Shown piece after piece: positions 10,231-22,295 of a stretch of DNA of 34,981 bases (its first letter is position 1; each line of letters starts with the position of its first letter). The notes under the pieces are model-generated. The model was not told where the DNA came from. It did not search any database and saw only the letters and a list, made by a program, of their open reading frames with translations. The stretch is from Ruminococcus sp. (GTDB lineage Bacteria > Bacillota > Clostridia > Oscillospirales > Ruminococcaceae): the NCBI GenBank assembly GCA_021770655.1, contig JAETQO010000021.1:1-34981 (forward strand), given 5' to 3'. The position numbers and the translations under genes are program-made.

Positions 10231-11532
<1,302 letters not shown>

Positions 11533-11570
11533 AAGAAGTGTTGCAAAGAAGTAATATTTTTGTCACTCCC

Positions 11571-11599
11571 TTGACTTTGATATGCAAATATGTTACTAT
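11571..11599 (+). promoter_or_regulatory. Sigma-A promoter of the pfl locus
   Basis: TTGACT (11571-11576) and TACTAT (11594-11599) are 17 bases apart, 71 bases before the pfl ATG. Confidence 0.7.
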
Positions 11600-11670
11600 T
11601 TAAGTATACGATAGGCATATGACTTTTTATATGCTCTATTCGATTTTTAGTATGCAAGGAGAGCAAAAAA

Positions 11671-13746
11671 ATGGAAAGACAGTTTTATGAGGAATGGGAA
11701 GGCTTTAAACCGGGAAGATGGTCAAGCACTTCTATAAATCTTCGTGATTTCATTCAGAAGAACTTCACTCCCTATGACGGTGACGAAAGCTTTCTCGCAG
11801 GTCCTACCGAGGCTACCAATAAGCTTTGGGAGCAGGTCATGGAGCTTTCAAAGCAGGAGCGCGAGGCGGGCGGCGTTCTCGATATGGATACAAAGATCGT
11901 TTCGACGATAACCTCTCACGGTCCTGGCTATCTTAATAAAGACCTTGAGAAAATTGTTGGTTTTCAGACAGACAAGCCTTTTAAGCGTTCTCTTCAGCCT
12001 TTCGGCGGTATCAGAATGGCAATGAACGCCTGCGAGCAGAACGGATATACTGTTGATCCGGAAGTTGTAAAGATTTTTACGGATTACAGAAAAACGCATA
12101 ATCAGGGCGTTTTTGACGCATACACTCCCGAAATGAAGCTGGCAAGACACGCCGCTATCATCACGGGTCTGCCGGACGCTTACGGTAGAGGAAGAATTAT
12201 CGGAGACTACAGAAGAGTTGCTCTTTACGGTATAGATTATCTTATTGAAGATAAGAAGGAACAGCTTGCGACATCGCTTGTAAGAATGACTTCAAAGAAC
12301 ATCAGACTTCGCGAGGAGCTTGCGGAGCAGATCAGAGCGCTGGGCGATCTGAAAAAGCTGGGCGAAATTTACGGCTATGATATTTCCCGTCCTGCAAAGA
12401 ACGCAAAGGAAGCAATTCAGTGGCTTTATTTCGGCTACCTTGCCGCTGTTAAGGAGCAGAACGGCGCGGCTATGTCCCTTGGAAGAACCTCGACGTTCAT
12501 TGATATTTATATTCAGAGAGACATTGAGAGGGGAATCCTTACCGAAGAAGAGGCGCAGGAGTATATCGACCACTTCATTATGAAGCTCAGACTTGTTAAG
12601 TTTGCGAGAACTCCCGAATATAATGCGCTGTTCTCCGGCGACCCGACATGGGTAACGGAATCTATCGGCGGAGTTTCTATTGACGGCGTACCGATGGTAA
12701 CAAAGACTTCGTTCAGATACCTCAACACGCTGAACAATCTGGGGCCTGCTCCTGAGCCGAATCTTACGGTTCTCTGGTCTACAAAGCTTCCGACAAACTT
12801 CAAGAGATTCTGCGCTAAGATGTCGATAAAGACGTCGGCTATACAGTATGAGAACGACGATCTTATGAGAGTTACTCACGGCGACGATTACGCTATCGCC
12901 TGCTGTGTATCCTCTATGAGAATAGGCAAGGAAATGCAGTTCTTCGGTGCAAGAGCAAATCTTGCCAAGTGCCTGCTTTATGCAATAAACGGAGGCGTTG
13001 ACGAAAGACTTAAAATTCAGGTAGGCCCTAAGTACAGACCCGTTACAGGCGATTATCTTGATTACGACGACGTTATGTCCAAGTATGACGATATGATGGA
13101 ATGGCTTGCGGGACTTTATGTAAACACTCTGAACGTTATCCATTATATGCACGATAAATACTGCTACGAAAAGGTTCAGATGGCTCTGCATGACAGAGAT
13201 GTCAAGAGGTACTTTGCAACGGGAATTGCGGGACTTTCGGTTGTTGCCGATTCGCTTTCCGCTATCAAGTACGCTAAGGTAAAGTGTATAAGGGACGAGG
13301 ACGGTATCGTTACGGATTACGAGGTCGAGGGAGATTTCCCGAAATACGGAAACAACGACGACCGTGTTGACAAGATCGCCGTCAATATCGTAAGAAGCTT
13401 TATGGACAAGATAAGAAAGCACCATACCTACAGAGACGGTGTTCCTACGATGTCTATTCTTACCATTACTTCAAACGTTGTTTACGGAAAGAAAACCGGT
13501 TCTACTCCGGACGGAAGAAAGATCGGTGTGCCTCTTGCTCCGGGAGCTAACCCGATGCACGGCAGAGATACGCACGGTGCGGCGGCTTCGCTGTCTTCTG
13601 TAGCTAAGCTTCCGTTCAGACACGCACAGGACGGAATTTCAAACACATTCTCCATAATCCCTGACGCACTCGGCAAGGACGATCAGGTATTTATGGGCGA
13701 TCTTGACATTGAGAGCATTGCAAAGGAGCTTAACGATGGGGTTTAA
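11671..13746 (+). CDS. pflB: Formate C-acetyltransferase catalytic subunit lacking the glycyl-radical domain
   Basis: Pyruvate formate-lyase cleaves pyruvate with CoA to acetyl-CoA and formate. This 691-residue ORF aligns by eye with the catalytic barrel: [11 protein letters not shown] near the N-terminus, MPFGGI-like [24 protein letters not shown], the adjacent catalytic Cys411-Cys412 in [29 protein letters not shown] and [17 protein letters not shown]. It ends after [20 protein letters not shown]..., just where family members continue into the C-terminal glycyl-radical domain (RVSGYA). That domain is encoded separately at 14046-14297. The next ORF begins 11 bases before this stop with its own SD. 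A clean in-frame TAA and SD-bearing downstream ORFs argue against a sequencing error. Confidence 0.93.
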
Positions 13747-13963
13747 CGTAAAAAAGGATGAGGACGAATCTCAGGTAAACGAGCTTGTTGAAATGATAGA
13801 CAGACTTATGGAAAACGGCGGCGGACATCTTACCGTTGATGTGGACGAGACCGCTGAGGGACTTAATGTAAAAACCTACAGCACCTCAGACTGCGGCTGT
13901 GACGGAAAAACCGCCTGCTGCCAGCCGACCGAGGAGGACGCTGTTGACGGCGGAGACGAATAG
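13736..13963 (+). CDS. Small PFL-associated protein, degenerate radical-domain-like with Cys-rich tail
   Basis: A 75-residue ORF whose ATG overlaps the pflB stop by 11 bases; AAAGGAG lies 7 bases upstream, so translation is coupled. Its segment [20 protein letters not shown] followed by LTVDV parallels [20 protein letters not shown] followed by LNVNV of the radical protein downstream, that is, the helix and first strand of the PFL C-terminal domain. It then diverges, has no RVSGYA loop, and ends in an acidic tail with a Cys cluster ([11 protein letters not shown]). It cannot carry the glycyl radical. A scaffold, metal-binding or assembly role is possible but unproven. I do not recognise a named family. 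Confidence 0.75.
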
Positions 13964-13983
13964 TATCGGAACTTTACGGGAGA

Positions 13984-14010
13984 GGGAAAGTCATGAAAAA
14001 AGACTTTCCC
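13984..14010 (+). other. Intercistronic hairpin in the pfl operon
   Basis: GGGAAAGTC (13984-13992) and GACTTTCCC (14002-14010) form a perfect 9-bp stem with loop ATGAAAAAA. There is no T-tract, so an RNA-stability or processing role is more likely than termination. It could let the small radical subunit be made at a different ratio from the core. Confidence 0.6.
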
Positions 14011-14045
14011 GGCGAATCCCGAAAACAAAGAAAGGAAATGATCTT

Positions 14046-14297
14046 ATGGCAAACTTTGAACCGAACGAAGCACAGGTAGACAATCTGATCGGACTGCTTG
14101 ACGGTTACGCTGAAAAGGGCGGACACCACCTTAATGTAAACGTACTTAACAGAGAAACTCTTCTCGACGCTCAGGCTCATCCTGAAAAATATCCGCAGCT
14201 CACTATAAGAGTATCGGGCTATGCCGTTAATTTTGTAAAGCTTACAAAGGAACAGCAGGACGATGTTATTTCGAGAACCTTCCATAGTAGTTTGTGA
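14046..14297 (+). CDS. Stand-alone glycyl-radical domain of pyruvate formate-lyase
   Basis: An 83-residue protein that is essentially the C-terminal radical domain of Pfl[41 protein letters not shown], then RVSGYAVNF with Gly58 as the predicted radical site, and [12 protein letters not shown] at the end. Family knowledge: PflA abstracts a hydrogen from this glycine. E. coli GrcA (YfiD) and a phage T4 homologue are spare parts that replace a damaged domain. Here the core enzyme has no domain of its own, so this protein should be obligatory for activity. The start has AAAGGAAATG; longer in-frame ATGs upstream cross the hairpin and lack support. It lies 82 bases after the small Cys-rich ORF. Confidence 0.92.
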
Positions 14298-14336
14298 TGT
14301 TTTTTGATGTTTATTACTTATGATTGATTTTGCAGC

Positions 14337-14370
14337 AGCGGACGGTCGGGAGCCGTTCGCTGTTTGTTTT
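14337..14370 (+). terminator. Intrinsic terminator between the radical subunit and pflA
   Basis: AGCGGACGG (14337-14345) pairs with CCGTTCGCT (14353-14361), followed by GTTTGTTTT. It probably limits read-through into pflA. Confidence 0.7.
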
Positions 14371-14390
14371 ATCTGAAAGGAAGGATCTTT

Positions 14391-15143
14391 ATGGAGGGCT
14401 TTATACATTCTACCGAAAGCTTCGGTACTGTTGACGGGCCGGGGATAAGGTTTGTTATATTTTTTCAGGGCTGTCCTATGAGATGCCTTTACTGTCACAA
14501 TCCCGATACATGGAGGATCGGTGCGGGGGAAAGGCGGACGGCTGAAAGTCTGTTGGAGGAATACGACTCTGTAAAAGAATTCATGCGCGGCGGAGGAATA
14601 ACCTGCACGGGAGGCGAGCCGCTTTTACAGCTTGATTTTGTGACGGAGCTTTTTGAAAAGGCTTACGGCAGGAATATACACACCTGTCTTGACACGTCGG
14701 GGATAGTTTTTACGCCTGATGACACGGAAAAGTTTGAGAGGCTTTGCGGGGTCACCGACCTTGTTATGCTGGACATAAAGCACATTGACAGGGAGAAACA
14801 CAAAAAGCTGACGGGGCATTACAATGACAACATTCTTGCTTTTGCAAAGTTTCTTTCCGATCGAGGCGTTCCGATCTGGATAAGGCACGTTGTTGTACCG
14901 GGGATAACCGACAGAGATGAGTTTTTATTCCGTTTGGGAGAATTTTTGGCGGAGCTTAAAACGCTGAAGGCTCTGGACGTTCTGCCTTATCACACAATGG
15001 GAAAGGTCAAGTATGAACAGCTTGGGATTGAATATCCTTTAGGCGACACGCCGCCGCTGGAAAAGTGCGAGGCGGTGAGGGCGAGAGATGTTATTATGAG
15101 AGGGCTGAAAAGCGAACTGTTAAAACGGAAGAATAAGGGCTGA
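14391..15143 (+). CDS. pflA: Pyruvate formate-lyase activating enzyme PflA
   Basis: A radical-SAM enzyme that installs the glycyl radical on pyruvate formate-lyase. The 250-residue protein has the CX3CX2C cluster motif as C28-PMR-C32-LY-C35, preceded by FGTVDGPGIRFVIF and followed by HNPDTW, all typical of PflA. GGGITCTGGEPLLQ, LDTSG and DLVMLDIKH are further SAM-binding landmarks. The ATG at 14391 follows GAAAGGAAGG. Its substrate here is expected to be the free 83-residue radical protein, alone or docked on the core. It is separated from the core operon by a terminator and ends in a strong one. Confidence 0.95.
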   Translation: MEGFIHSTESFGTVDGPGIRFVIFFQGCPMRCLYCHNPDTWRIGAGERRTAESLLEEYDSVKEFMRGGGITCTGGEPLLQLDFVTELFEKAYGRNIHTCLDTSGIVFTPDDTEKFERLCGVTDLVMLDIKHIDREKHKKLTGHYNDNILAFAKFLSDRGVPIWIRHVVVPGITDRDEFLFRLGEFLAELKTLKALDVLPYHTMGKVKYEQLGIEYPLGDTPPLEKCEAVRARDVIMRGLKSELLKRKNKG

Positions 15144-15150
15144 TATGTGA

Positions 15151-15186
15151 AAATCCCGGCTTTTTGCTAAGCCGGGATTTTTTGTG
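15151..15186 (+). terminator. Intrinsic terminator of pflA
   Basis: AAATCCCGGCTT (15151-15162) and AAGCCGGGATTT (15169-15180) form a 12-bp perfect stem, and the T-run continues to 15184. It lies between convergent genes and may work in both directions. Confidence 0.92.
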
Positions 15187-15196
15187 TGTAATTAAT

Positions 15197-16009
15197 TTAT
15201 TCGTAGAACCGGTATTCTTCACCTGCTATCGAGATCGGTATCTGCATAGTGCTGACAAAGGCTGTATCTTTGATATGCGTTAAGAGGTCGTCAAGCTTTG
15301 AGTCGTCTGCAAGGTCGATCCGTAACGCTTCGACTCCCGATGAGGTCGGCGGAGAAACATATTCTATATCTGTGATATTATAGTTGTCCTTATTGCTTTC
15401 AAGGTGTGTGCAGAGAGTTTCCACTATTCCGTTGACTCTGATACCGCCGCCGAATTTTATATCGGTTGCTGAAAGATCAACATTGCAGTCTGTAAGCAGG
15501 TTTTTCAGTTCATCTACATTATGCTCGTAACAGACATATATTTCTACTTTGTCATCTGATCTTGATGAGGAGGAAAAACCGAAATCATATCCTATATCAC
15601 AAAGCTTGCTGACAAGGTTCTGAATCATTACCGGGTCTGAAATTACCGTGTCGCTGACAGGCAGGTCCTCGCTTGGCTCGATTCTTTCGGTGTGGACGTC
15701 CGCAAGGTTCTCGTTTAGCCCTTTTATCTCAAGATATGATTTTATGCGCAGGACGCCGTCATAGTCTGGGACGGTAACGTCAAGATATGTGTCGCGGTTC
15801 TCTATGGAAATTATAGCAAATTCGGTCTTTTTACTTTCAAGGACTGTTTGAATATTTTCAAGATCGTTCTTTTCAGGATTGCTGTCTGTAGACCCAGTCG
15901 AGGCTGGCTGTACAGTACTGCTGGAAATCGGTGATGATTTATCAGAGCATCCTGCAAGGCAAGCGGTGGTCATAAGTACTGCAAGCATTAATAATACAGC
16001 TTTTTTAAT
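15197..16009 (-). CDS. Putative lipoprotein with repeated alpha/beta modules, apparent ATT start
   Basis: No named family recognised. From an ATT at 16009 the product is 270 residues and starts (M)KKAVLLMLAVLMTTACLAGC, a textbook lipoprotein signal with lipobox LAGC (Cys21). AAGGAG lies 9 bases before the ATT. The first ATG (15988) has no SD and would remove the two lysines, leaving an uncharged signal. Between an upstream in-frame stop (16030-16028) and that ATG there is no ATG, GTG or TTG. After a Ser/Thr-rich linker come three modules of about 60-70 residues with helix-strand-strand-helix character, similar to the lipoprotein at 7729-8520. Function unknown. Confidence 0.75.
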   Translation of the reverse strand: MKKAVLLMLAVLMTTACLAGCSDKSSPISSSTVQPASTGSTDSNPEKNDLENIQTVLESKKTEFAIISIENRDTYLDVTVPDYDGVLRIKSYLEIKGLNENLADVHTERIEPSEDLPVSDTVISDPVMIQNLVSKLCDIGYDFGFSSSSRSDDKVEIYVCYEHNVDELKNLLTDCNVDLSATDIKFGGGIRVNGIVETLCTHLESNKDNYNITDIEYVSPPTSSGVEALRIDLADDSKLDDLLTHIKDTAFVSTMQIPISIAGEEYRFYE

Positions 16010-18239: not shown

Positions 18240-21200
18240 GTGCCTTTAAATAAAGATATTAAGCGAGTTCTTGTTATTGGTTCGGGTCCGATCGTTATCG
18301 GACAGGCGGCTGAGTTCGACTATGCCGGAACACAGGCTTGCCGTGCGCTCAAGCAGGAGGGGCTTGAGGTCATTCTTATCAACTCAAACCCGGCTACAAT
18401 TATGACGGATAACGCTATGGCGGACAAGATATACATCGAGCCGCTTACTCTTGAAACTGTCAAGAGAGTTATCAAGAAGGAACGTCCTGACAGTCTGCTT
18501 TCTACGCTGGGCGGTCAAACGGGTCTTACGCTTTCGATGCAGCTTGCTAAGGAGGGTTTCCTTGACAAGTACGGCGTTAAGCTCCTTGGCGCGAATCCTG
18601 AGACTATCGACAAGGCTGAGGACAGACAGATGTTCAAGGACACTATGGAGTCTATCGGACAGCCCTGCATTCCTTCAAAGGTCGTAAACACTGTCGAGGA
18701 CGCTGTTGATTTTGCCAATCAGCCGGGTATCGGTTATCCGCTTATCATCAGACCTGCGTTTACTCTCGGCGGTACGGGCGGAGGAATCGTAAATAATGAG
18801 GAAGAACTGAAGGAGATCACAAGAAACGGTCTTTATCTTTCTCCTATTACTCAGGTGCTTGTTGAGAAGTGCATTGCGGGCTGGAAAGAGATAGAGTTCG
18901 AGGTTATGAGAGACGCAAAGGGCAACGTTATCACTGTTTGCTCTATGGAGAACTTCGATCCCGTGGGCGTACATACGGGTGATTCTATCGTTATCGCTCC
19001 TGCGGTAACCCTTGCGGACAAGGAATATCAGATGCTTCGTTCGGCAGCTTTGAAGATCATCGATACACTGAAAGTAGAGGGCGGCTGTAACTGCCAGTTT
19101 GCGCTTAATCCGGACAGCTTTGAATATGCCGTTATCGAGGTAAACCCGAGAGTTTCGCGTTCTTCTGCACTGGCGTCAAAGGCGACGGGTTATCCTATTG
19201 CAAAGGTTGCGGCTCAGATCGCTATCGGATACACGCTGGACGAGATAAAGAACGCTGTTACGGGCAAGACTTACGCTTGCTTTGAGCCGGCGCTTGACTA
19301 TGTTGTAGTTAAACTGCCTAAGTGGCCTTTCGACAAGTTCGTTTATGCTAAGCGTGAGCTTGGCACTCAGATGAAGGCTACCGGTGAGGTAATGGCTATC
19401 GGTTCGACTTTCGAGCAGGCTATTATGAAGGCGGTAAGAGGTGCGGAGATCGGTCACGACTGTCTTATTTCTCCGAAAATGGTGGACCTTGACGACAAGA
19501 CTATCCATGACAGGCTTTACGACTGCACGGATGAGAGACTTTTTGTTGTATACGAGGCGCTGAGAAGAGGAGTGACCGTTGACGAGATACACGACATTAC
19601 GAAGATCGACGAATGGTTCCTTTACAAGCTATGCAAGCTTATCGACATGGAGAAAAGACTTGCAGATGATTTTAACAACGATACTTATATCGAGGCTAAG
19701 AAGATCGGTTACACCGATAAGGTGATCGAGAAGATCACAGGCAAGAAGATCGAAAAGCCTGCTCACGCCGTATTCAAAATGGTTGATACCTGTGCGGCTG
19801 AGTTTGCGGCTCAGACTCCTTATTTCTACTCTACATATGACAATGAGGACGAGGCAAGCGAGTTTATCGCAAGCAAGGGTCCCGACAGAAAGACGGTTAT
19901 CGTATTCGGTTCGGGTCCTATCAGGATCGGACAGGGTATCGAGTTCGACTACGCTTCGGTTCACTGCGTATGGGCTTTGAAGGAAAAGGGCTATGATGTT
20001 GTTATCGTAAACAACAACCCGGAGACGGTTTCTACAGACTTCGATACTGCGGACAGACTTTATTTCGAGCCTCTTACAGACGAGGACGTAATGAACATTA
20101 TCAGAGTTGAAAAGCCTGTGGGCGTTGTTGTGGCGTTCGGCGGACAGACGGCTATCAAGCTTACAAAGCATATGTCTGAGAACGGAGTAAACATTCTTGG
20201 CACGCCTCCTGATTCTATCGACGCGGCGGAGGACAGAGAGAGATTTGACGAGCTGCTTGAACAGCTGAAGATAAAGCGCCCTCAGGGCTTTACGGTAATG
20301 ACCTGCGACGAGGCTCTTGAGGTTGCCAACAAGATACACTATCCTGTACTTATGAGACCTTCCTATGTTCTCGGCGGACAGAACATGATAATTGCGTTCA
20401 ATGACGACGACATAAAGGAATACATGGCTATCATTCTCGATCAGGGTATCGAGAACCCTGTGCTTATCGACAAGTATCTTATGGGCACGGAGCTTGAGAT
20501 AGACGCTATATGCGACGGCGAGGATATTCTTATTCCGGGCATTATGGAGCATATCGAGAGAACGGGTATCCACTCGGGCGACTCGATAGCGGTTTATCCT
20601 GCATGGAACGTTTCGGACAGCCTTATCGACAGGATAATCGAATGCTCTAAGAAGCTTGCAATTTCCCTTAACACAAAGGGCCTTGTGAATATTCAGTACA
20701 TCGCTTACAATGATGAGATATATGTAATCGAGGTAAATCCCCGTTCTTCGAGAACTATTCCGTACATTTCAAAGGTAACGGGTGTTCCTATGGTCGATCT
20801 GGCTACTAAATGTATGCTGGGTGAAAAGCTCAGGGATATGGGCTACGGTACGGGTCTTTACAGAAATTCCCCGTATGTTGCCGTTAAGGTGCCTGTATTC
20901 TCCTTTGAAAAGCTTATCGGCGTTGACAATCATCTCGGTCCTGAGATGAAGTCTACGGGCGAGGTGCTTGCGGTTTCAAGCTCCCTTGAAGAATCGCTGT
21001 ACAAGGGCCTTACTGCCGCAGGCTACAAGCTTGGCAAAAAAGGCGGAGTATTTATCACGGTGAGAGACGCCGACAAGAGCGAGATACCGCACACGGCTAA
21101 GCTGTTTTCCGATCTCGGGTTCAAGATATACGCTACGCAGGGAACTGCAAACGTTCTTCACGAGCACGGTATCCAAGCGGAGACGGTAGCTAAGATACAC

Positions 21201-22295
21201 GAAAACGAGAGCAACAACACGCTTACTCTTATCGAGAGCGGAAAGATCGCTTATGTTATCTCTACTTCATCAAAGGGCAGGATACCTACAAGAGATTCTG
21301 TTAAGATAAGAAGAAAGACGGTTGAATGGAACATTCCTTGTCTTACCTCTATAGACACTGCCAACGCTATTGCGGCCTCTATCAGAAGCAAGTACACTGA
21401 GGAGACTACGGAGATCGTTGACATCAACAACATGAGAACCGAAAAACAGAATATTGAGTTTACCAAAATGCAGGGCTGTGGAAACGACTATATTTACTTT
21501 AACTGCTTTAATCAGAGAATTGACAATCCCGAGGGACTTGCGCTCAATCTTTCCGACAGACATTTCGGTATCGGCGGCGACGGTGTGATACTTATATGCA
21601 GATCGAAGGTCGCGGACGCTAAGATGAGAATGTTCAATCTGGACGGTTCAGAGGGCAAGATGTGCGGAAACGGCATAAGATGCGTTGCAAAGTTCATGAG
21701 GGACAACGGCATTGTGGATAAGGACGAGATGGAGATCGAGACCTTGTCGGGAATAATCAAGGTTTCGCTTATACGTCATTACGGCGAGGTAAACGGCGCT
21801 ACGGTAAACATGGGCAAGGCTATTCTTGCGCCGAATCTTATTCCTGTTGATCTTGAGCCTGATAAGAACGGCAGGGTAGTTGACAGAAAGGTCAATATTG
21901 CCGGAACTGATTATAATGTTACCTGCGTATCCATGGGTAATCCTCACGCAGTGGTATTTATGAACAATGTGGACGCACTGGACATTGACAAGGTAGGTCC
22001 TCAGTTTGAACACGATAAGGTATTCCCGGAGAGGGTGAATGCCGAGTTTATCAAGGTCATTGACGATCATACTCTGAAAATGAGAGTATGGGAGAGAGGT
22101 TCAGGAGAGACATGGGCCTGCGGAACGGGCGCCTGCGCTGCTGCTGCGGCGGCTGTGCTGAACGGTTACTGCAAGAAGGATACGGACATTATGGTAATGC
22201 TAAAGGGCGGCAATCTGAAGATACGCTACACCGACGACGCCGTTTATCTGACGGGTGACGCTGTAACGGTATTCTCGGGTCACATTGTAATGTAA
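18240..22295 (+). CDS. carB-dapF: Fusion of carbamoyl-phosphate synthetase large subunit and diaminopimelate epimerase (CarB-DapF)
   Basis: A single 1351-residue frame. Residues 1-1064 are a complete CarB: the first ATP-grasp half (VLVIGSGPIVIGQAAEFDYA, GGTGGGIV, VIEVNPRVSRSSALASKATG), the second half (VIVFGSGPIRIGQGIEFDYA, PSYVLGGQ, VIEVNPRSSRTIPYISKVTG) and the C-terminal MGS-like allosteric domain (about 935-1055). From Met1065 the sequence is a full DapF of about 287 residues: FTKMQGCGNDYIYF, NLSDRHFGIGGDGVI, KMCGNGIRC with catalytic Cys1142, MGNPHAV, and WACGTGACA with the second catalytic Cys1294. No stop or strong internal SD separates them. DapF interconverts LL- and meso-diaminopimelate; dapL follows directly. 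Start is GTG at 18240 after AAAGGA. Confidence 0.95.
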   Translation: MPLNKDIKRVLVIGSGPIVIGQAAEFDYAGTQACRALKQEGLEVILINSNPATIMTDNAMADKIYIEPLTLETVKRVIKKERPDSLLSTLGGQTGLTLSMQLAKEGFLDKYGVKLLGANPETIDKAEDRQMFKDTMESIGQPCIPSKVVNTVEDAVDFANQPGIGYPLIIRPAFTLGGTGGGIVNNEEELKEITRNGLYLSPITQVLVEKCIAGWKEIEFEVMRDAKGNVITVCSMENFDPVGVHTGDSIVIAPAVTLADKEYQMLRSAALKIIDTLKVEGGCNCQFALNPDSFEYAVIEVNPRVSRSSALASKATGYPIAKVAAQIAIGYTLDEIKNAVTGKTYACFEPALDYVVVKLPKWPFDKFVYAKRELGTQMKATGEVMAIGSTFEQAIMKAVRGAEIGHDCLISPKMVDLDDKTIHDRLYDCTDERLFVVYEALRRGVTVDEIHDITKIDEWFLYKLCKLIDMEKRLADDFNNDTYIEAKKIGYTDKVIEKITGKKIEKPAHAVFKMVDTCAAEFAAQTPYFYSTYDNEDEASEFIASKGPDRKTVIVFGSGPIRIGQGIEFDYASVHCVWALKEKGYDVVIVNNNPETVSTDFDTADRLYFEPLTDEDVMNIIRVEKPVGVVVAFGGQTAIKLTKHMSENGVNILGTPPDSIDAAEDRERFDELLEQLKIKRPQGFTVMTCDEALEVANKIHYPVLMRPSYVLGGQNMIIAFNDDDIKEYMAIILDQGIENPVLIDKYLMGTELEIDAICDGEDILIPGIMEHIERTGIHSGDSIAVYPAWNVSDSLIDRIIECSKKLAISLNTKGLVNIQYIAYNDEIYVIEVNPRSSRTIPYISKVTGVPMVDLATKCMLGEKLRDMGYGTGLYRNSPYVAVKVPVFSFEKLIGVDNHLGPEMKSTGEVLAVSSSLEESLYKGLTAAGYKLGKKGGVFITVRDADKSEIPHTAKLFSDLGFKIYATQGTANVLHEHGIQAETVAKIHENESNNTLTLIESGKIAYVISTSSKGRIPTRDSVKIRRKTVEWNIPCLTSIDTANAIAASIRSKYTEETTEIVDINNMRTEKQNIEFTKMQGCGNDYIYFNCFNQRIDNPEGLALNLSDRHFGIGGDGVILICRSKVADAKMRMFNLDGSEGKMCGNGIRCVAKFMRDNGIVDKDEMEIETLSGIIKVSLIRHYGEVNGATVNMGKAILAPNLIPVDLEPDKNGRVVDRKVNIAGTDYNVTCVSMGNPHAVVFMNNVDALDIDKVGPQFEHDKVFPERVNAEFIKVIDDHTLKMRVWERGSGETWACGTGACAAAAAAVLNGYCKKDTDIMVMLKGGNLKIRYTDDAVYLTGDAVTVFSGHIVM

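Follow-up and report, generated by a model that had tools for sequence, protein, structure and literature searches.

Can a pyruvate formate-lyase (PFL) work when its glycyl-radical domain is made as a separate protein? PFL is normally a single chain. Gut anaerobes use it as a main route for pyruvate, and oxygen destroys the glycyl radical on which it depends. In Escherichia coli, the chain is cleaved by oxygen at the glycine that bears the radical, and YfiD then substitutes for the part that is lost. The question is raised by a 34,981-nucleotide stretch of a Ruminococcus sp. genome (contig JAETQO010000021.1), which as a whole is called the window here. In this stretch a PFL core gene is followed, in order and all on the (+) strand, by a third gene (ORF2), by a gene for a stand-alone radical subunit (GrcA3) and by the gene for the PFL-activating enzyme (PflA; Table 1). 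Comparison with relatives indicates that split PFLs of this kind have a conserved cysteine arm, which is either fused to the core or free as ORF2.

A core and a separate radical subunit

The core frame ends at a TAA codon (13744-13746). Its product scores 1135.1 bits against TIGR01255, well above the cut-off of 994.2, and covers positions 1-667 of the 744 in that profile. Against PF01228, only positions 2-51 of 106 are matched, and the remainder lies on a separate open reading frame (ORF); no C-terminal glycyl-radical domain is present in the same chain. The catalytic Cys-Cys pair (codons 12901-12906) occupies columns that hold both cysteines in all 107 split and all 19 fused rows of the alignment. 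Homology of the split core to E. coli PFL stops near residue 681, and the tail motif F.G[DE][LI] occurs at 93 of 109 split loci versus none of 21 fused ones. Among genome contigs searched, the core of Ruminococcus bicirculans 80/3 is 95% identical to that of the window. These matches identify the core as a genuine pyruvate formate-lyase whose chain stops ahead of the glycyl-radical domain.

The product of grcA3 passes the NF038360 cut-off (165.3 bits versus 158), and its RVSGYA motif places the radical glycine at codon 14217-14219. It falls below the equivalog cut-off of the GrcA/YfiD model TIGR04365 (99.9 versus 170 bits), which it matches at model positions 66-126 only, and it has no N-terminal extension of the YfiD type. 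Its profile match identifies it as the radical domain that the core is missing. The sequence-only reading of this locus had described both products in these terms, and the profile searches bear it out. The same reading had placed the radical gene 300 bases past the core. That spacing stands, but the gap is not empty, as it contains the conserved ORF2. The adjoining activase gene encodes a protein that scores 292.7 bits against TIGR02493 (cut-off 231.75).

The source genome is a 2.66-Mb, 99.8%-complete draft, and a search of it for another full-length pfl gene found none. The window locus is thus rejected as a decaying paralogue of a second intact PflB. PF02901 matches two frames in the genome, the window core and an 837-residue frame on another contig (G000:C48:31186-33384, L007; here and below, G, C and L mark our handles for genomes, contigs and loci). 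This second frame was rejected as a PFL. It scores below the cut-off of every NCBIfam model that it matches and is a different glycyl-radical enzyme, next to which a separate activase is encoded; the neighbouring gene is one that we take to encode an N-acetylmannosamine-6-phosphate epimerase. Two other PF01228 matches, on C13 and C71, are not picked up by PF02901 and are presumably anaerobic ribonucleotide reductases. The proposal that the radical domain is always supplied in trans therefore holds for this genome, where no other PFL was found, but not across the group. At least three genomes of another family (G677, G711 and G724) have both a free-standing and a long-frame match, and two fused enzymes fall within the split clade (see below). 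At the window locus itself, supply in trans is supported by these searches, which suggests that GrcA3 is a subunit there and not merely a spare part.

The arrangement is kept in relatives. When genome contigs were searched with the window core as query, 76 of the best 80 loci had cores that stop in the same region, and 74 of these show a separate radical ORF in the fetched stretch (L108 and L111 do not); the other four are fused (L121, L122, L137 and L140). Because the selection favoured loci that most resemble a split core, the proportion of 76 in 80 should not be read as a frequency in the population. The split loci include named representatives of Ruminococcus, Blautia, Lacrimispora, Claveliimonas, Catonella, Beduini, Massilimicrobiota, Olsenella, Gastranaerophilales and a metagenome-assembled genome of Spirochaetales.

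Within the family, 125 of 197 genomes have a core match at E 1e-100, of which 32 are split, with all 32 loci checked. Two exceptions are an 85% match that stops at a contig edge (G076) and a fused enzyme at 73% (G122). Matches at or below 70% are listed as full-length frames or fragments, and the 16 whose sequences were checked are all fused. No split-core genome has a second PFL row at the same threshold (0 of 32); two rows occur in only two genomes, neither of them split. PF02901 matches 27 of the 29 genomes of the genus, a count of matches alone in which split and fused enzymes are not distinguished. In a draw of 398 genomes from the whole phylum, 2 match NF038360 above its cut-off; in the family of G418, which holds Blautia sp. 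An81, 70 of 200 genomes do.

In a FastTree phylogeny of 129 cores, the split rows all fall into a single clade with support of 99, and this clade also includes two fused rows. One of these, L137, is fused and lacks the arm cysteines. The other, L144, is a single 799-residue frame that carries the core, a split-type cysteine tail (IFIGCDNC) and the radical domain. Both are read as re-fusions.

This distribution bears on the possibility that the locus is decaying or mis-assembled, with the two small frames (ORF2/ORF3) as remnants of a lost radical domain. The lack of a radical glycine in ORF2 and the overlap of reading frames could be taken in that sense. However, a separate core and radical gene are found at more than 100 loci, the split rows form one clade, the core belongs to the only PFL found in the genome, and all three genes have ratios of nonsynonymous to synonymous substitution rates (dN/dS) well below 1 wherever these could be computed. 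Decay is thus extremely improbable. A sequencing error at the core stop codon, which would have undone the sequence-only reading, is likewise rejected because relatives keep the split.

ORF2 and the cysteine arm

ORF2 overlaps the core stop by 11 nucleotides in the +1 frame, with an AAAGGAG sequence upstream. In an hhalign comparison (probability 94.5, E 7.5e-8, 29 columns), residues 10-38 of its product pair with residues 7-35 of GrcA3, and NF038360 weakly matches 28 of 37 ORF2 members. The shared part is the N-terminal half of the radical domain, comprising a helix and an HLxVxV strand. In place of the glycine loop, the window protein has C-x7-C-x-x-P. Among 66 ORF2 frames, SGY is found in none and C-x(4-14)-C-x(1-2)-P in 65, and D22, C53, C61 and P64 are invariant in the 37 aligned members. 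These similarities indicate that the radical domain itself is the source of ORF2. Neither Pfam nor NCBIfam has a model that ORF2 matches above cut-off, and a Pfam scan of the 37 members gave scattered weak matches.

The order core-ORF2-radical gene is kept at all 66 loci. Substitution rates were compared in 11 hand-chosen pairs of near relatives. The dN/dS of ORF2 is 0.08-0.14 in the seven pairs with dS below 1. Three further pairs, the window versus L062 among them, give values of 0.04, 0.05 and 0.13 that are rough, with dS near 3. One pair was not computable, and the ratio is below 0.15 in all ten that were. Such rates mark ORF2 as a genuine gene that purifying selection maintains in relatives.

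Because ORF2 begins inside the core gene, in the +1 frame and behind a Shine-Dalgarno-like site, a programmed frameshift at the core stop might be imagined to join the two in one chain. In many relatives, however, ORF2 starts past the core stop, often with a Shine-Dalgarno-like site of its own, and in three genomes an ORF2-like gene lies away from the core. The overlap is not conserved, so that frameshift fusion is rejected as very improbable.

Relatives without a free ORF2 reveal the second form of the arm. A first set of 130 loci (L032-L161, the window's own included) comprises 109 split and 21 fused enzymes. Among the split loci, 66 have ORF2, 38 have a cysteine-containing core tail, five have neither and none has both. 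The core tail lacks cysteine at all 66 ORF2 loci, and at the 38 others it carries at least two, in sequences such as DCACCEPN, DCSNGACGTPTLFEGLD and DKGCCED. The ORF2 detector is a hidden Markov model (HMM) built from 53 members of this set, so a second set tests the rule and not the detector. It consists of 54 further loci, picked among the matches listed with a free-standing GrcA3 as the sole criterion. Of the first 41 free-standing rows 39 were taken, and to these were added one extra copy and the two copies of each of seven genomes that have two. Here the 46 loci with a core divide into 24 with ORF2, 21 with a cysteine tail, one with neither and none with both (24, 18, 1 and 0 once three cores repeated from the first set are removed). 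Pooling 108 distinct and 43 new split loci gives 89 with ORF2, 56 with a cysteine tail, six with neither and none with both. Cutting the tail by a second rule leaves the counts of both sets unchanged.

Some of the loci with neither form have explanations. For three of them (in G111, G190 and G177), an ORF2-like gene is present at another place in the genome, although the match in G177 is weak (E 1.2e-5), and a fourth locus, L111, runs into a contig edge. In G190 (L024, on C37) and G111 (L025, on C47), ORF2 stands outside the pfl operon, with core and GrcA3 together elsewhere. At L024 it adjoins what we take to be a deoxycytidylate-deaminase-like gene.

Parsimony counts 12 switches between ORF2 and a cysteine tail. 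On well-supported branches there are six independent pairs, and in every one of them the two characters change in opposite directions (p = 0.031 by a sign test).

Table 1. Features of the split pfl locus, in window coordinates.
Feature	Position	Strand	Description
pflB core	11671..13746	+	691-residue catalytic PFL chain; no glycyl-radical domain; C411-C412 pair; split-type tail
Shine-Dalgarno-like AAAGGAG for ORF2	13722..13728	+	within last core codons; ATG 7 nucleotides downstream
ORF2	13736..13963	+	75 residues; half radical domain (residues 10-38), C53/C61 motif, acidic tail, no RVSGY
Perfect 9-bp hairpin, GGGAAAGTC/GACTTTCCC	13984..14010	+	between ORF2 and grcA3; folding z -2.1
grcA3	14046..14297	+	ATG to stop; 83-residue stand-alone glycyl-radical subunit; RVSGYA, Gly58
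Terminator-like stem upstream of pflA	14334..14364	+	4 such sites found versus 3.8 expected by chance
pflA	14391..15143	+	PFL-activating radical S-adenosylmethionine enzyme

How the radical subunit may be held, activated and replaced

An experiment on the E. coli enzyme suggests what the split PFL would need. When residues 696-733 are removed from E. coli PFL, YfiD binding is no longer detectable and activation is 32-fold lower, while turnover once activated is intact (PMC8683613). Homology of the split core ends even earlier than this truncation, near residue 681, and GrcA3 is without the YfiD-type N-terminus, so that a substitute recognition or leash element is expected. We infer that the arm, a conserved new part beside the F.G[DE][LI] motif of the core tail, does this job.

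We therefore favour, with moderate confidence, a multi-subunit PFL, the sole PFL found in its genome, in which GrcA3 docks in the core and the cysteine arm is a non-covalent leash that presents GrcA3 to PflA. GrcA3 would dock into the core, PflA would install the radical on Gly58, and the radical would move on to the core cysteine pair as in ordinary PFL. Activation would require the radical domain to swing out of the core to meet PflA, and a separate domain would be lost at that step. The arm, whether tethered to the core or docked through the ORF2 half-domain, would hold GrcA3 and present it. In the ORF2 form, the half-domain would be a docking device that replaces covalent attachment. If oxygen were to cut the radical protein, only a subunit of about 9 kDa would be lost and replaced.

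Several observations weigh against the leash, or against the regularity that it draws on. The cysteine motif is all that ORF2 and the core tails share; the shared part does not extend to the strand overlapping the recognition element of E. coli, so that a leash explains the half-domain better than it explains the cysteines. AlphaFold confidence is low (the ORF2 model has a predicted local distance difference test score, pLDDT, of 57, and the tail of a form-B core is below 50), and for that reason no docking site is predicted. In the genome of L088, the ORF2 search matched the radical gene itself and nothing else. At L195 (G722:C48), the order is core-pflA-grcA3, with neither ORF2 nor a cysteine tail in the fetched stretch. 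The sign test loses strength (median p 0.0625) when fused rows and those with neither form are included. Finally, assembly joins could instead account for the two fused rows within this clade of split enzymes, and the branch of L144 is long.

Because a leash alone leaves the cysteines unexplained, a second role for the arm is retained, although we think it rather unlikely. The arm would be a redox safety device, in which, on departure of GrcA3 or entry of oxygen, the cysteine pair fills the vacated radical socket, quenches a glycyl or thiyl radical by hydrogen-atom transfer and is later re-reduced. The cysteines are what both forms have in common, as ORF2 has two invariant Cys together with a Pro and 38 of 38 core tails have a Cys pair, and the ORF2 half-domain might dock at the radical-domain site. 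Some second copies of GrcA3 also lie near genes that look like thioredoxin, rubrerythrin or Crp/Fnr-like genes. However, the spacing of the cysteines differs among core tails, only 20 of 38 fitting C-x(0-6)-[AC]C-x(1-2)-P.

The arm might also bind a metal or an iron-sulfur (Fe-S) cluster that tunes thiyl-radical formation. Glycyl-radical enzymes with Fe-S small partners exist, for example, benzylsuccinate synthase, and the small subunit of 4-hydroxyphenylacetate decarboxylase binds an Fe-S cluster. Each ORF2 chain, however, has just two invariant cysteines, and a profile search of the PDB gave no match between ORF2 and a solved small subunit of a glycyl-radical enzyme. At pLDDT 57, the ORF2 model is too poor a basis for comparison with a HiPIP-like fold. 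The only split-specific candidate in the core is C434 (12970-12972), 22 residues past the catalytic pair, which is cysteine in 107 of 107 split rows but also in 4 of 19 fused relatives, and split-specific core cysteines were accordingly rejected as metal ligands. A metal site is improbable.

In a broader account, which we put forward tentatively, split PFL would be a stable radical enzyme of three components. The accessory part, with its half radical domain and redox-active cysteine pair, would stand where the radical domain has its socket or leash, would control the timing of loading, activation and safe discharge of the exchangeable radical subunit, and would have moved repeatedly between the core tail and a gene of its own.

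Additional copies of the radical gene bear on replacement of GrcA3. In eight genomes GrcA3 is encoded a second time, on a different contig and with no core within about 3 kb upstream (L213, L214, L217, L218, L220, L223, L225 and L198, where absence of a core is less sure as the contig is only 5.4 kb). Between 59 and 74 of the last 75 residues match the operon copy. Judged by eye, neighbouring genes are presumably Crp/Fnr-like (L213, L220 and L198), thioredoxin (L213) and rubrerythrin (L225); no gene of these three kinds was seen among the neighbour frames inspected at the other four loci. Such copies fit a separately regulated replacement subunit. They also lend circumstantial support, through the neighbours of some of them, to the earlier suggestion that separation permits quick repair and expression of the radical part in excess.

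Hairpins ahead of the radical gene could raise the level of mRNA for this subunit. There are 107 intergenic stretches, of which 36 outside 25-400 nucleotides were left unfolded and four from loci with neither form of the arm were folded but not counted. A folding z below -2 was found in 22 of the remaining 67 (10 of 40 ORF2 loci and 12 of 27 cysteine-tail loci). The hairpin of the window is a possible mRNA processing or stability element; it is suggestive only, because no similar signal is seen in L062 (z -0.7), the closest relative.

Promoter and terminator scans of the locus gave no more sites than chance, and an Rfam search of positions 11000-15300 gave no match at gathering scores. Elsewhere in the window, a single 1351-residue frame (18240-22295) presumably joins the large chain of carbamoyl-phosphate synthase to an apparent diaminopimelate epimerase.

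Relation to known radical enzymes

The literature searches, in which subscription journals were thinly covered, returned no description of a split PFL, GrcA3 or ORF2 among the matches listed. The catalytic chemistry and the GrcA3 name (from NCBI) are known; the subunit architecture and the accessory protein appear to be new, being unreported in the literature searched. A permanently separate radical domain amounts to a natural experiment on the docking, activation and repair of such domains, and the split PFL provides a counterpart, open to testing, of the 'recognition element' in E. coli. Being made in pieces may let gut anaerobes swap only the oxygen-sensitive part of the enzyme. A change of annotation is suggested, as such PFLs are not truncated, and an oxygen-repairable PFL may become usable for engineering formate assimilation.

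The window enzyme resembles fused PflB (E. coli PFL, PDB 2pfl/1h16) in its core sequence, its catalytic cysteine pair, its dedicated PflA and the sequence of its radical domain. The fold of a core model from a relative, L101, also has fused PflB as its best Foldseek match (62% identity). It differs in that the radical domain is separate, the core has a new C-terminal tail and ORF2 has no counterpart. With YfiD/GrcA (PDB 6owr; PMC8683613), it shares a free-standing radical domain, a duplicated beta strand and a predicted need of the core for activation. However, YfiD restores full-length enzyme that has been damaged, and its N-terminus of about 60 residues is disordered, whereas in the window's genome no full-length enzyme was found and GrcA3 has no such N-terminus. 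The name of the NF038360 family implies a repair cofactor, but the window GrcA3 is the only PFL radical domain found in its genome, and the family covers neither the core nor ORF2.

As a small cysteine-containing partner, ORF2 is reminiscent of the small subunits of benzylsuccinate synthase and 4-hydroxyphenylacetate decarboxylase. It is unlike them in having no sequence match to them, two invariant cysteines instead of a cluster-binding set, and an origin in the radical domain. A split core may already be among the solved structures. PDB entry 38lb_A ('Formate acetyltransferase', 38la/38lb) is near the Olsenella split core over the aligned parts, which are all that was compared, with a cysteine pair in the aligned part of its tail (ECDMCE). 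It was not among the radical-domain matches, and no 38la/38lb chain matched ORF2 or GrcA3. By sequence, 38lb_A resembles the split cores typified by Olsenella. A more distant parallel is the split class II ribonucleotide reductase of Pseudomonas aeruginosa, which is reported to be likewise a radical enzyme on two chains (PMC4520616), although it is a different enzyme with a different cofactor.

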